Part shown: positions 9,060 to 14,449 of the stretch, in pieces
How the letters are laid out: each line of letters begins with the position of its first letter
Position numbering within the stretch: the first letter of the stretch is position 1
Assembly (NCBI GenBank): GCA_005792725.1
Contig: SXQZ01000142.1
Coordinates: forward strand, 1-35,150
DNA length: 35,150 bases
Source: Actinomycetota bacterium
GTDB taxonomy: Bacteria > Actinomycetota > Thermoleophilia > Miltoncostaeales > Miltoncostaeaceae
Reading direction: 5' to 3'
The notes under the pieces: model-generated
What the model saw: the letters and a program-made list of their open reading frames with translations, nothing else
Databases searched by the model: none
What the model was told of the DNA's origin: nothing
Made by a program: the position numbers and the translations under genes

Positions 9060-10408
9060 GGGCCCTGCGCGCCGGCCGGCTGCTGTTCACCAAGGACCTG
9101 CGCGTGCTGGTACGCAGCCGCGGCCTGCTCGCGGTGCTCATCGGCTACCCCATCGTCATCGGAATCCTGCTGGCTCTCGCGCTGTCGGGCGGCGACCGGC
9201 GACCGGCCATCGCCTTCGTCAACCTCGACGCCACATCGGGGCGAACGGTGCAGGTAGGCGACGAGCGGCTGTCCATGGAGGACTATGCGACGAGCCTCGA
9301 GGAGCACGTGGATCTGGTGCGCCTCGACCCGGCCGCGGCCGAGGAGGCGCTGTCGGCGGGCCGGGTCAGCGCCGTGCTCACCGTGCCCAAGGGGTTCATC
9401 GCCGACCTGCAATCGGGCCTGAAGCCCCCGGTCCTGCAACTCGCCACCAACCCGCGGTCGCCGATCGAGGCCCAGGCGATCGAGCGCAACCTCGAGTCCG
9501 CAATCTTCCGGTTGAACCAGGAACTGGCCACCGCGTACGTCACGCAGGTGCTGAACCTGGTGGATCTCATCCAGAAGGGCGGCACCATCGGCATCTTCGG
9601 CCGCTCGGGAACGCTGATGGGCCTCGACGACAGCAACCGCATGCTCGCGCAGGTGCAGGCGCAATTGCGCCGCGACGGCCGCGGCGCCCTCGCCACGCGC
9701 CTCGAGCCGCTGCGCGTGTACATCTCGGAGATCGGTGGCAACCTCGAACTCGCGAAGCCCGCGGCCCAGGCAATCGCCAGCCCCATCCGGCTGGACATCC
9801 GTGACGGCGCGCCCGGGCGCGAGCCGCTGTCGGCCCTGGGCATCGCCGGTGCCCTGGTCGTGGGCATCGGCCTCGTGGGCGTGCTGCTGGCAGCGGCACT
9901 GCTGTCGGCCGAGCGTGAGGACCGGGTTCTCTCCCGGCTGGGCCGCGGGCTCGCGGGCCCGGGCACGATCATCGGGCAGAAGGCGGTGCTCGCGGCGGTG
10001 GCCTGCATGATCGTCGGTGTCGTGCTGCTGGGCGTGGTCGCCGTCAGCACCTCGGTGGAGGTGGGGCGCTGGCTGCTGTGGCTGCCGGCGCTCCTGCTCG
10101 CGGGCCTGGCCTCCGGCGCCTTCGGGCTGCTGGTCGGCGCCCTCGCCCGCGAGACGCGCACGGCGCTGCTCGCGGGCCTCATGCTCGCCCTCCCCCTTGC
10201 CGTGATCTCGCTGATCCCCGGCAACGACATCGCCTACTGGGCCAGCGCCCTCGCGGGCTTCGGACCCGCGGCGCGCACGTTCCAGGGGCTGCTGGTGGAC
10301 CCGGAGGTCACCTCATCCACGTATTCCGGCATGGGCATCATGGCCGTGGTGGCCGTGGTGTACGGCGTGGCGGCCCGCGTCGCGCTGGGCCGCCGCATGC
10401 ACGCCTAA
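9056..10408 (+). CDS. ABC-2 type transporter permease
   Basis: This 450-aa permease starts with GTG overlapping the ATPase stop (GTGA), so it is translationally coupled. It has one N-terminal transmembrane helix (LLAVLIGYPIVIGILLALAL, about residues 22-42), a large loop of about 210 residues that should face outward, and five or six helices in the C-terminal third (for example IAGALVVGIGLVGVLLAAAL and WLLWLPALLLAGLASGAFGL). This is the ABC-2/YhgE-like layout. With the ATPase it forms a homodimeric exporter of unknown cargo. Its TAA stop overlaps the TAG stop of the convergent aat gene (the four bases CTAA at 10405-10408), leaving no room for a terminator between them. Confidence 0.85.
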   Translation: MRALRAGRLLFTKDLRVLVRSRGLLAVLIGYPIVIGILLALALSGGDRRPAIAFVNLDATSGRTVQVGDERLSMEDYATSLEEHVDLVRLDPAAAEEALSAGRVSAVLTVPKGFIADLQSGLKPPVLQLATNPRSPIEAQAIERNLESAIFRLNQELATAYVTQVLNLVDLIQKGGTIGIFGRSGTLMGLDDSNRMLAQVQAQLRRDGRGALATRLEPLRVYISEIGGNLELAKPAAQAIASPIRLDIRDGAPGREPLSALGIAGALVVGIGLVGVLLAAALLSAEREDRVLSRLGRGLAGPGTIIGQKAVLAAVACMIVGVVLLGVVAVSTSVEVGRWLLWLPALLLAGLASGAFGLLVGALARETRTALLAGLMLALPLAVISLIPGNDIAYWASALAGFGPAARTFQGLLVDPEVTSSTYSGMGIMAVVAVVYGVAARVALGRRMHA

Positions 10409-11040
10409 CCCAGATCGCGCGTGCGGACGAGGTGCCCCGTGAACTCATCATGGGGCATGCCCCGGGCGCCGAACCGGGCCAGATGCGGTGACTCCATCTG
10501 CACGTCCACGAGCGTGGCCCCCTCGGCGCGCGCGATCCCGATCAACCCCGCGATCGCGGCATTGCCGCCGTCAGGCGCCCGGTGGAACATGCTCTCGGCG
10601 GTCAGGACGCGGCCCATCCGCACCCCGAAGAGGCCGCCGACCAGCACGTTGCCCTGCCAGGCCTCCACGCTGTAGGCGATCCCACGTGCGAACAGCGCCT
10701 CGTAGCCATTCATCAGGCGCGGGGTCAGCCACACCCCGCCGCGGTCGCCCCCGCAGCGCGTGAGCACATCGCGGAATGCCGTGTCCATCCGCACCTCGTA
10801 CCGGCGCCGTCGCAGCATGCGCCGCACCGTCGCGGGGATGCGGGCGTCGGGCATCGGAATGACCCACCGGGGGTCGGCCGTGTACCACCCCACCGGCCCG
10901 TCGGCGCCCAGGATGTCCATCGGGAATGCGCCCGCGCGGTACCCGGCCACCATCTGCGGCGGCGCAATGCCCGCGGCGGCGAGGTCCGGGTCACCTGACC
11001 CCAACCTCCCGGCCCCGCGCGCACCCCCGTCGCCACCCAC
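10405..11040 (-). CDS. aat: leucyl/phenylalanyl-tRNA-protein transferase
   Basis: Aat adds Leu or Phe from charged tRNA to proteins with N-terminal Arg or Lys, marking them for ClpS/ClpAP degradation (N-degron pathway). Family motifs are visible: MVAGYRAGAFPM, GWYTADPRWVIPMP, VWLTPRLMNGYEALFARGIAYSVEAW, GGLFGVRMGRVLTAESMF, NAAIAGLIGIARAEGATLVDVQ and FGARGMPHDEFTGHL. The length of about 211 aa is normal. GTG at 11040 was chosen because TATCGT (11053-11048, minus) is 7 bases ahead, the leaderless spacing seen elsewhere. TTG at 11004, directly after GGGAGG, is a shorter alternative. The gene is divergent from hemB, with overlapping promoters, and convergent with the ABC permease, with overlapping stops. 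Confidence 0.9.
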   Translation of the reverse strand: MGGDGGARGAGRLGSGDPDLAAAGIAPPQMVAGYRAGAFPMDILGADGPVGWYTADPRWVIPMPDARIPATVRRMLRRRRYEVRMDTAFRDVLTRCGGDRGGVWLTPRLMNGYEALFARGIAYSVEAWQGNVLVGGLFGVRMGRVLTAESMFHRAPDGGNAAIAGLIGIARAEGATLVDVQMESPHLARFGARGMPHDEFTGHLVRTRDLG

Positions 11041-11047
11041 GACGGCG

Positions 11048-11057
11048 ACGATACACT
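11048..11057. promoter_or_regulatory. symmetric bidirectional -10 element for aat and hemB
   Basis: The ten bases ACGATACACT read as TACACT on the plus strand (11052-11057, 7 bases before hemB GTG 11065) and as TATCGT on the minus strand (11053-11048, 7 bases before aat GTG 11040). The two -10 boxes share the central TA. Both genes would be leaderless, with starts 25 bases apart. No -35 boxes are clear. Confidence 0.5.
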
Positions 11058-11064
11058 CGGACCC

Positions 11065-12087
11065 GTGGCACCCGAGATCGCCGACACCATGCCGCGTACG
11101 GGCGGGTTCCCCGCCGTCCGGCACCGTCGGCTGAGAACCACCGAGGGCATGCGGCGCCTCGTGCGCGAGACGGCGCCGCGGCCATCGCAGTTCGTGCTGC
11201 CGATGTTCGCCGTCGCGGGCGAGGGCGTGCGCCAGCCGGTGGATGCCCTGCCGGGCATTGCCCGCCTCTCCCCCGACCTCCTGGTCGAGGAGGCCCGCGC
11301 TGCCCGCGACGCCGGGGTCGGAGGCGTGCTGCTCTTCGGGGTCACCGACCTCAAGGATGCCGACGGGTCGTCGGCCCATGCCGCGGACGGGGTGGTGCAG
11401 GAGGCCGTGCGGGCGCTGAAGACCGCGCTGCCCGATCTGGTGGTCATCACCGATGTCTGCCTGTGCGGCTATACCGACCACGGCCACTGCGGCCTGCTCG
11501 GCGGCGGCGGCGAGGTGGACAACGATGCGTCGCTCGCGGTACTCGCGCAGACCGCCGTGAGTCACGCACGGGCCGGAGCCGACGTGGTGGCCCCCAGCGA
11601 CATGATGGACGGCCGGGTGGCGGCGATCCGCTCCGCCCTCGATGAGGCCGGATACGAGGACGTGGCGATCATGTCCTACTCCGCGAAATACGCATCCGCG
11701 TTCTACGGGCCCTTCCGCGAGGCGGCGGGCTCGGCACCGGGCCACGGCGACCGCCGCGGCTACCAGATGGACCCGCCCAACGCGCGCGAGGCGGTGCGCG
11801 AGGTGCGCGAGGACGAAGCCGAGGGCGCCGACCTGGTGATGGTGAAGCCTGCCGCCACCTACCTCGACGTGATCCGGGCCGTGCGCGAGGCCACCGGACT
11901 GCCCGTGGCCGCCTATCACGTGAGTGGTGAGTACGCGATGGTGAAGGCGGCCGCGGAGCGCGGATGGCTCGACGAGCGCAGCGCCATGCTCGAGGTTCTC
12001 ACGGCCGTCGTGCGGGCGGGCGCCGACATCGTCATCACCTATGCGGCCGTGGACGCGGCGCGGTGGATCCACGAGGGGGAGCGATGA
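11065..12087 (+). CDS. hemB: delta-aminolevulinic acid dehydratase (porphobilinogen synthase)
   Basis: HemB condenses two 5-aminolevulinates to porphobilinogen, the first common tetrapyrrole step. The 340-aa protein has the Zn-type metal site DVCLCGYTDHGHCG with Cys132, Cys134 and Cys142. The two active-site lysines are Lys208 in MSYSAKYASAFYGPF and Lys261 in LVMVKPAATYLD. The C-terminal PVAAYHVSGEYAMVKAA is also typical. GTG 11065 follows a -10 box by 7 bases; ATG 11089 is an in-frame alternative eight codons in. It heads an overlapping gene chain (hemB, ahbAB, hemL, orphan, ubiD): its TGA overlaps the next ATG by ATGA, with GAGGGGGAG upstream as the ribosome site for the next gene. Confidence 0.95.
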   Translation: MAPEIADTMPRTGGFPAVRHRRLRTTEGMRRLVRETAPRPSQFVLPMFAVAGEGVRQPVDALPGIARLSPDLLVEEARAARDAGVGGVLLFGVTDLKDADGSSAHAADGVVQEAVRALKTALPDLVVITDVCLCGYTDHGHCGLLGGGGEVDNDASLAVLAQTAVSHARAGADVVAPSDMMDGRVAAIRSALDEAGYEDVAIMSYSAKYASAFYGPFREAAGSAPGHGDRRGYQMDPPNAREAVREVREDEAEGADLVMVKPAATYLDVIRAVREATGLPVAAYHVSGEYAMVKAAAERGWLDERSAMLEVLTAVVRAGADIVITYAAVDAARWIHEGER

Positions 12088-13166
12088 CGACCGCGGCCGC
12101 CCGGCCCACGCACCACCGGCCCGACGAGGTGGACAAGCGCCTGCTCAATGCCGTGCAGGCGGGCATCCCGCTCACCCGACGGCCCTACCTGGGAATCGCC
12201 GAGGCCGTCGGGATCGACGAGGATGAGGTGCTGCGCCGTATGGGCGTGCTGAAGGACGCCGCGATCATCCGCCAGGTGTCCGCCATCTTCGACACCCGCG
12301 CGCTCGGCTACGAGAGCACGCTGGTGGCGGCTGCCTACCCCGATGACCGCCTCTTCGAGGCGGCCACGGTGGTCAACGGGCACCCGGGCGTGAGCCACAA
12401 TTACCGCCGCACGCACCGCTTCAACATGTGGTTCACACTGGCCGTGGAGCCGGGTGCACGCATGTCCCTGGAGGACACCCTCGACGTGCTGACCCGCGAG
12501 ACCGGCGCCCTGTCCATGCGCATCCTGCCGACGCTCACGCTCTACAAGATCAACGTGCAGCTCGACATGACGGGGGCCAGTGGAACCACCGCACGCGCCG
12601 AGCCGGTGGCACCGCCCCGGCGCGGTGACGGTCATCCGCCCTCCGACGAGGACCGTGCGGCCATCCTCATCCTCCAGGAGGATCTGCCGCTGGTGCGCGA
12701 GCCGTTTGATCTCTGGGCGCAGGCGGCGGGCTGGGACGTGGACCACCTGCTCGCGAAGGCCGCGGAGATGAAGGAGCGCACGGTGATGCGGCGGTTCGCC
12801 GGCGTGCTGAACCACCGCCGGGCCGGGTTCGGTGCCAACGGCATGGCCGTGTGGAAGGTGCCCACCGACCGGATTGACGACTTCGGCAGCCGCATGGCCA
12901 CGTTCACCTCGGTGTCGCACTGCTACCGCCGGCCGACCTACGACGACTGGCCCTACAGCCTCTTCACGATGGTGCACGCGCGATCACGGGACGCCTGCGA
13001 CGAGACCATCGCCGCGCTGGCGGGCGAGGTCGGTCTGGGTCCCGACGACTACTCGGTCCTGTACTCGACCTTCGAGTTCAAGAAGATCCGCCTGCGCTAC
13101 TACTCGCCCGAGTACCGCGCCTGGGAGGACATCGCACGGGCGGGATCATCCCTGCCGACGGCGTGA
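12084..13166 (+). CDS. ahbAB: fused siroheme decarboxylase AhbA-AhbB
   Basis: This 360-aa protein has two Lrp/AsnC-like halves in tandem, each with a winged-helix segment and an alpha/beta ligand domain. Half one (residues ~13-165) has DKRLLNAVQAGIPLTRRPY and HNYRRTHRFNMWFTL. Half two (~185-355) has ILILQEDLPLVREPFDLWA, VMRRFAGVLNHR and HCYRRPTYDDWPYSLFTMVH. The HxYRR...NxWFT and HCYxRP...WPYxLFTMVH motifs are those of AhbA/AhbB and the heme d1 proteins NirD/L/G/H, not of transcription factors. AhbAB removes two acetate carboxyls from siroheme to give 12,18-didecarboxysiroheme. Its place between hemB and hemL supports a tetrapyrrole role. AhbC, AhbD and siroheme synthase genes are not in the window, so siroheme-to-heme versus a heme d1-like product cannot be decided. 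Confidence 0.85.
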   Translation: MTTAAARPTHHRPDEVDKRLLNAVQAGIPLTRRPYLGIAEAVGIDEDEVLRRMGVLKDAAIIRQVSAIFDTRALGYESTLVAAAYPDDRLFEAATVVNGHPGVSHNYRRTHRFNMWFTLAVEPGARMSLEDTLDVLTRETGALSMRILPTLTLYKINVQLDMTGASGTTARAEPVAPPRRGDGHPPSDEDRAAILILQEDLPLVREPFDLWAQAAGWDVDHLLAKAAEMKERTVMRRFAGVLNHRRAGFGANGMAVWKVPTDRIDDFGSRMATFTSVSHCYRRPTYDDWPYSLFTMVHARSRDACDETIAALAGEVGLGPDDYSVLYSTFEFKKIRLRYYSPEYRAWEDIARAGSSLPTA

Positions 13167-14449
13167 GCACGGTGACCGGCGCTCCCCGCGGCGCCCGCAG
13201 CGCCGAACTGTTCGACCGGGCCCGACGCGTACTGGTGGGCGGCGTCAACTCGCCCGTGCGCGCCATGCGCGGCATCGGGCGCGACCCGCTGTTCATTGAC
13301 CGCGCCGAGGGTGCCCACGTCTGGGACGCCGACGGCAACCGCTACGTGGACTTCCTGGCCTCGTGGGGGCCCGCCATCACCGGGCACGCCGACCCGGTGG
13401 TGATCGGTGCCCTGCGCGAGGCCCTTGCGCGGGGCACCTCGTACGGGGCACCCACCGAGCGGGAGGTGCGGTTCGCCGAGGTGGTCACCGGGGCGTTCCC
13501 CTCGATCGAGCGGCTGCGCATGACCTCGTCGGGCAGCGAGGCCGTGATGGGCGCCGTGCGCCTCGCGCGCGCCGCCACCGGACGCGAGGCCATCGTCAAG
13601 GCCGAGGGCGGCTACCACGGGGCCATTGACGGCCTTCTGGCCCAGGCCGGGAGCGGGGCGACGACCCTCGGCGTACCCACCAGCCCGGGGGTCACGGCGG
13701 GCGCGACCGCCGCGACCCGCCTGGTGCCCTACAACGACCTGGCGGCTGCCGAGGCAGCGCTCGACGGCGCGGCGGCCATCATCATCGAACCGGTCGCCGG
13801 GAACATGGGCGTGGTGCCCCCCGCCCCCGGGTACCTCGCGGGGCTGCGCGCTGCCTGCGACCGCACGGGGGCGCTGCTGATCCTCGACGAGGTCATCACG
13901 GGGTTCCGTGTGGCGCGCGGCGGGGCGCAGGAGCGGTTCGGCGTGCAGGCCGACCTCACGTGCCTCGGCAAGGTCATCGGCGGCGGCCTGCCCGTGGGTG
14001 CCTTCGGCGGTCGCGCCGACGTGATGGCCGAACTCGCGCCCGAGGGCCCGTGCTACCAGGCCGGCACCCTCTCGGGGAACCCGCTGGCCACCGCCGCGGG
14101 CCTCGCCGTCCTCGCGCGGCTCGCCGCGCCCGGTACCTACGAGCGGCTTGACGAGGCGGGTGCCCGGCTCGAGGAGGTCATCCGCGGCAGTGGCGCGCCG
14201 GTCACGATCAACCGGGTCGGCTCGATGCTCACGGCGTTCCTCACCGATACCGAGGTGACCGACTACGCGGGTGCCACCGCCTGCGACACGGACCTGTATG
14301 CAGCCATCGCGCGCGGCCTGCTGGCCCGCGGGGTGTACCCGCCGCCGTCGCAGTTCGAGGCCTGGTTCGTGAGCACCGTGCACGGCGAGGCCGAGTTCGA
14401 TGCCACGGCCCGCGCCCTGGCCGGGGCCCTTGAGGAGGCCGGCGCATGA
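13163..14449 (+). CDS. hemL: glutamate-1-semialdehyde 2,1-aminomutase
   Basis: HemL converts glutamate-1-semialdehyde to 5-aminolevulinate with PLP, supplying HemB. The 428-aa protein starts SAELFDRARRVLVGGVNSPVRA, a family hallmark, and has TSSGSEAVMGAVRLARAATG, LLILDEVITGFRVA, the PLP lysine at 270 in CLGKVIGGGLPVGAFGG, and YQAGTLSGNPLATAAGLAVL. GTG at 13163 overlaps the ahbAB stop (GTGA). Its own TGA overlaps the next ATG. hemA (glutamyl-tRNA reductase), which would complete the C5 route, is not in the window. The assignment is secure. Confidence 0.95.
   Translation: MSTVTGAPRGARSAELFDRARRVLVGGVNSPVRAMRGIGRDPLFIDRAEGAHVWDADGNRYVDFLASWGPAITGHADPVVIGALREALARGTSYGAPTEREVRFAEVVTGAFPSIERLRMTSSGSEAVMGAVRLARAATGREAIVKAEGGYHGAIDGLLAQAGSGATTLGVPTSPGVTAGATAATRLVPYNDLAAAEAALDGAAAIIIEPVAGNMGVVPPAPGYLAGLRAACDRTGALLILDEVITGFRVARGGAQERFGVQADLTCLGKVIGGGLPVGAFGGRADVMAELAPEGPCYQAGTLSGNPLATAAGLAVLARLAAPGTYERLDEAGARLEEVIRGSGAPVTINRVGSMLTAFLTDTEVTDYAGATACDTDLYAAIARGLLARGVYPPPSQFEAWFVSTVHGEAEFDATARALAGALEEAGA

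Follow-up and report, generated by a model that had tools for sequence, protein, structure and literature searches.

A symmetric -10 element between aat and hemB as a putative bidirectional promoter of two leaderless mRNAs

The divergent genes aat and hemB are very probably served by a bidirectional housekeeping promoter, in which one pseudo-palindromic -10 element would drive two leaderless mRNAs. The element, AnnnTAnnnT (ACGATACACT), lies between the two start codons in a window of 35,150 bp, the term being used here for the whole stretch of DNA analysed, which belongs to a metagenome assembly of 1.55 Mb that is 73% complete. The features on which the argument turns are the following:

10405 to 11040, minus strand: aat, leucyl/phenylalanyl-tRNA--protein transferase, 211 aa, GTG start, predicted leaderless (PF03588, E 4e-48, above cut-off)
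11046 to 11058, no strand: invariant 13-bp block CGACGATACACTC (column counts, 19 species)
11048 to 11057, no strand: shared symmetric -10 element (direct sequence reading; unchanged in 19/19 genus members)
11053 to 11048, minus strand: aat -10 box TATCGT (A at 11048, the mirrored base, present in 19/19 genus members but 0/12 outgroups)
11052 to 11057, plus strand: hemB -10 box TACACT (CGA, a CGN triplet, directly before the box; TAnnnT upstream of hemB also in 12 outgroups)
11065 to 12087, plus strand: hemB, porphobilinogen synthase, 340 aa, GTG start, predicted leaderless (PF00490, E 3e-142; NF006762, E 3e-145)
12039 to 13166, plus strand: fused siroheme decarboxylase AhbA-AhbB, start provisional (NF040708 and NF040707 in one ORF; PF22451, PF17805)
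13163 to 14449, plus strand: hemL (TIGR00713, above cut-off; 4-bp overlap with the AhbA-AhbB ORF)

The geometry described in the initial annotation is exact in the sequence: the boxes TACACT (plus strand) and TATCGT (minus strand) overlap in the central TA at 11052-11053, and each is separated by 7 nt from a GTG start codon, that of hemB at 11065 (+) and that of aat at 11040 (-). The two start codons are only 24 bp apart, and the intergenic space measures 22-25 bp across species. RNA polymerase would bind this single element in either orientation, each TAnnnT box beginning with the central TA. The two start sites, on opposite strands, would lie roughly 23-25 bp from each other, each on the start codon of its gene or no more than 1-2 nt away, so that both mRNAs would be leaderless. 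From the sequence we infer transcription in both directions from these positions, together with mutual exclusion of the two polymerases. The forward box is preceded by CGA, whereas the reverse box is without a CGN extension and is preceded by GTG, so hemB would be the stronger direction; promoters inside hemB could also feed aat. Matches to a -35 motif averaged 2.6 and 2.9 of 6 positions in the two directions, against 2.4 in the control, and neither was clearly above control. A TAnnnT box stands 7 nt before the aat start and 7-8 nt before the hemB start, and no Shine-Dalgarno-like motif was found before aat or hemB in any of 19 species (19/19). A search of the window for RNA families returned as its sole match a tRNA gene (Rfam RF00005, 30523-30595, plus strand), and no known RNA element at the junction.

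The genes downstream of the element on the plus strand overlap one another, with the AhbA-AhbB ORF extending over the end of hemB and sharing 4 bp with hemL. These three genes probably form one operon, and the overlaps therefore suggest that the plus direction drives a heme operon. The AhbA and AhbB halves are fused in a single ORF placed between hemB and hemL. On the opposite side, aat stands by itself, apart from a 4-bp overlap with a convergent ABC-transporter permease gene; its match to TIGR00667 (E 7e-39, 133 bits) falls slightly under the 143.6-bit cut-off.

Conservation was read in a genus sample of 20 genomes, of which 19 have a readable junction, the contig of the remaining one (G010) ending inside hemB. 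If the T of the shared TA is numbered 0, there is no variation from -6 to +6 in 19/19 species, and +7 (11059) is G in 18/19. Beyond them, positions -10 to -7 and +8 to +13 are all variable, -11 is G in 18/19, and the bases at -14 to -12, which complement the aat GTG, are invariant again. The conserved footprint is thus symmetric, with seven positions on each side of the dyad centre (the last one in 18/19), and an invariant block centred on the TA with equal reach on both sides fits a situation in which both directions matter rather than one. The surrounding sequence has diverged considerably: the fourfold degenerate sites of hemB have a mean pairwise identity of 0.58, and just 6 of 114 are invariant in 18 species; the 19 species have a common ancestry, however, and do not represent 19 independent trials. 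Free drift in close relatives, which would have spoken against the initial annotation, was not what the columns displayed, as the 13-bp block is identical in all 19 species while the spacers vary. Together with the gaps to the start codons, these columns also support a part of its proposal, namely a single symmetric -10 element that would give leaderless mRNAs in both directions and is conserved in relatives. The aat start is a GTG at gap 7 in 19/19 species. The hemB start (ATG or GTG) lies at gap 7 in two species and at gap 8 in the remainder, two of which additionally carry a GTG at gap 5; the gap of 8 nt in most congeners implies a leader of 1-2 nt or a slightly shifted start.

By itself, AnnnTAnnnT shows no enrichment in the window (3 occurrences against 5.5 expected), and the case therefore rests on the flanking start codons and on conservation. 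When CAY and RTG are required exactly 7 nt away on the two sides, one instance is found against 0.01 expected. The exact 10-mer ACGATACACT has a single copy in the 1.55-Mb assembly, and the exact 13-mer CGACGATACACTC occurs once per genome in 19/19 readable genus genomes, always at the aat/hemB junction; copies with one mismatch are few and scattered.

Leaderless signatures were surveyed in 1.47 Mb of congener G008 and 0.78 Mb of congener G018. In G008, the frequency of TAnnnT at gaps 6-8 before candidate starts is about ten times that at other gaps, a signature suggesting that the lineage uses leaderless initiation. The counts are approximate and probably too low, since even the aat/hemB pair of the window escaped the rough gene finder: in G008, TAnnnT stands at gap 6-9 before 266 of 1396 predicted genes, and 30 of 190 divergent pairs have leaderless TAnnnT on both sides. 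Seven A/T control motifs of identical layout gave far fewer cases at divergent pairs in this survey. Three pairs in G008 share the TA, namely aat/hemB, C9:4667 (a PHP-domain gene and a SUI1-like gene) and C18:16206 (two small genes without assigned function), the gene descriptions coming from reading the translations, and two further divergent pairs have boxes that overlap in other registers. In G018 there are two, aat/hemB and C2:181435. Like aat/hemB, the three additional pairs combine AnnnTAnnnT with in-frame starts 7-9 nt away on both sides. A palindromic CTAAGATTAG was also seen between divergent leaderless-type genes, at L161:12648 on contig C9 of G008, where the genes are RNase D-like and ABC-F ATPase genes, and at L244:5435 on contig C1 of G018; in both genomes, its -10 boxes overlap in another register.

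The same survey bears on the mirrored base. In G008 and G018, A occupies the position four bases before an ordinary leaderless box in 5-6% of cases, against about 14% in the nearby background, and is also scarce at -3 and -2, so that the forward promoter seems to prefer other bases there. Depletion at -4 to -2 also keeps most leaderless promoters one-directional. The fixation of A11048 against this tendency supports a second function for it.

This observation speaks against the reading of the element as a one-way hemB promoter, in which TACACT alone is used, the mirrored half is kept for other reasons, such as upstream contacts of the forward promoter, and aat has its promoter elsewhere. In favour of this reading, the hemB box is kept throughout the family, and a CGN before TAnnnT, common in mycobacteria (PMC3898074), accounts for C11049 and G11050. 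However, A11048, a base that ordinary boxes tend to avoid at this position, is left unexplained, as are C11046-G11047, the symmetric footprint and the constant 7-nt distance to the aat GTG (19/19); with an intergenic space of merely 22-25 bp as a further objection, this reading is unlikely. The idea that the block overlaps the promoter as an operator, bound by a DNA-binding regulator of heme genes, would find an argument in the partial dyad CGA-N8-TCG and in middle bases conserved beyond the bare TAnnnT consensus, but this dyad falls exactly on the pair of -10 boxes. This candidate was rejected, as the 13-mer is unique in each genome and does not recur at co-regulated genes, its one-mismatch copies being few and scattered, and we consider it very improbable.

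The least credible proposition is that the mirrored box is a chance by-product, that reverse transcription is spurious and that aat begins at an internal ATG, the M of M..GY..G.FPMD. This methionine is conserved in 19/19 species and the N-terminal linker before it varies in length. Nevertheless, across the 19 species the linker has 9, 19 or 29 codons and is always open and in frame from the GTG, which supports translation from the GTG, although its codon-position statistics are only weakly coding-like in the largest length class. The motif presumably sits well inside the Aat protein of E. coli, which would also count against an internal start, and invariance of a chance box is hard to expect where 95% of hemB fourfold sites change. 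A bidirectional promoter shared by aat and hemB remains the preferred reading.

Promoters of this type are already known in bacteria, and the aat/hemB element appears to be a well-supported instance of them. In E. coli, 19% of RNAs come from bidirectional promoters with symmetric -10 elements, the start sites being commonly 18, 10 or 23 bp apart, with 18 bp the commonest distance (PMC12825309); the definition used in Salmonella asks for divergent start sites separated by 7-25 bp (PMC10268837). The initial annotation had taken the service of two coding genes by a symmetric -10 element as their sole promoter to be the novel aspect, a view that does not stand, as 24% of the E. coli bidirectional promoters are located between divergent genes and make two mRNAs (PMC12825309). 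The overlapping opposite-strand -10 hexamers in one symmetric element are present here, and so is constraint on both half-elements, a supporting feature that does not strictly define the class. Like the E. coli and Salmonella promoters, the element has a single pseudo-symmetric -10, and the spacing predicted for it from box geometry is 23-25 bp. However, the five pairs examined in E. coli include acrA/acrR and soxS/soxR, while both mRNAs are predicted to be leaderless here; the E. coli case rests on transcription and that of aat/hemB on genus-wide conservation. Class membership in the strict sense requires start-site mapping, and by its sequence the element would fit.

A resemblance in promoter architecture is also seen in Mycobacterium tuberculosis. 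Leaderless promoters of this species and of other high-GC bacteria have TANNNT about 7 nt before the start and no Shine-Dalgarno sequence, as in aat/hemB (PMC3898074, PMC3160421). The TANNNT promoters are described there without a -35 consensus and often with CGN before the box, and the aat/hemB element is likewise without a recognisable -35 (PMC3898074). Closely juxtaposed divergent promoters also occur in M. tuberculosis, such as PrpD/Rv1129c, with both mRNAs leaderless, but the available text does not present the -10 boxes of such a pair as one shared element, unlike those of aat/hemB (PMC3898074, PMC3160421). To the known cases, aat/hemB may add a pair of mRNAs both predicted to be leaderless, comparative evidence that each half is under selection, and a plausible account of how such a promoter arose. 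Since the footprint is symmetric and the mirrored base is limited to the genus with a close facing gene, the comparison suggests that the bidirectional -10 has been selected as such and not merely tolerated.

Outside the genus, TAnnnT is found 6-9 nt before the hemB start in 12/12 genomes from other genera of the family, and the base four positions before the T of the box is G or C in these 12 outgroups, never A. In a quick HemB tree, the family joined mixed phyla with weak support. An SDR gene was found in nine outgroup genomes, in most of which it sits between hemB and aat, transcribed away from hemB and close up to aat. In G020, G031, G061 and G062, which belong to one genus, aat lies next to hemB, the aligned coding parts being 130-204 bp apart, and the mirrored box was not found in this wider spacer. 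In the spacer of G031, G061 and G062, GATCTTGACA recurs. The SDR gene is absent from the part of congener G008 that was read, save for a paralogue of 29% identity, which suggests its loss in this genus. As the SDR gene often separates hemB from aat outside the genus, its loss was probably the event that gave rise to the shared element. In the simplest history, aat would once have followed the SDR gene in an operon that diverged from hemB; with the SDR gene gone, aat transcription would have begun right at the hemB promoter, where the mirrored A was then acquired. Such a gene loss may thus be a route by which bidirectional promoters originate, and a CGNTANNNT promoter requires just one A ahead of CGN to acquire the mirrored TAnnnT.

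A further proposal, which we regard as speculative and rather unlikely, is that the shared -10 acts as a fixed ratio-setter, with polymerase exclusion tying heme-operon and Aat output together by sequence alone, in an arrangement that arose by deletion of the intervening gene and little more than one mirrored A. If true, the N-end-rule transferase Aat would be tied to the heme operon without a regulator or a 5' UTR. In five E. coli bidirectional promoters that were tested, competition was seen only after activation, the basal activity being too low for it (PMC12825309). The aat/hemB pair may offer a minimal natural test object for polymerase competition of this kind.
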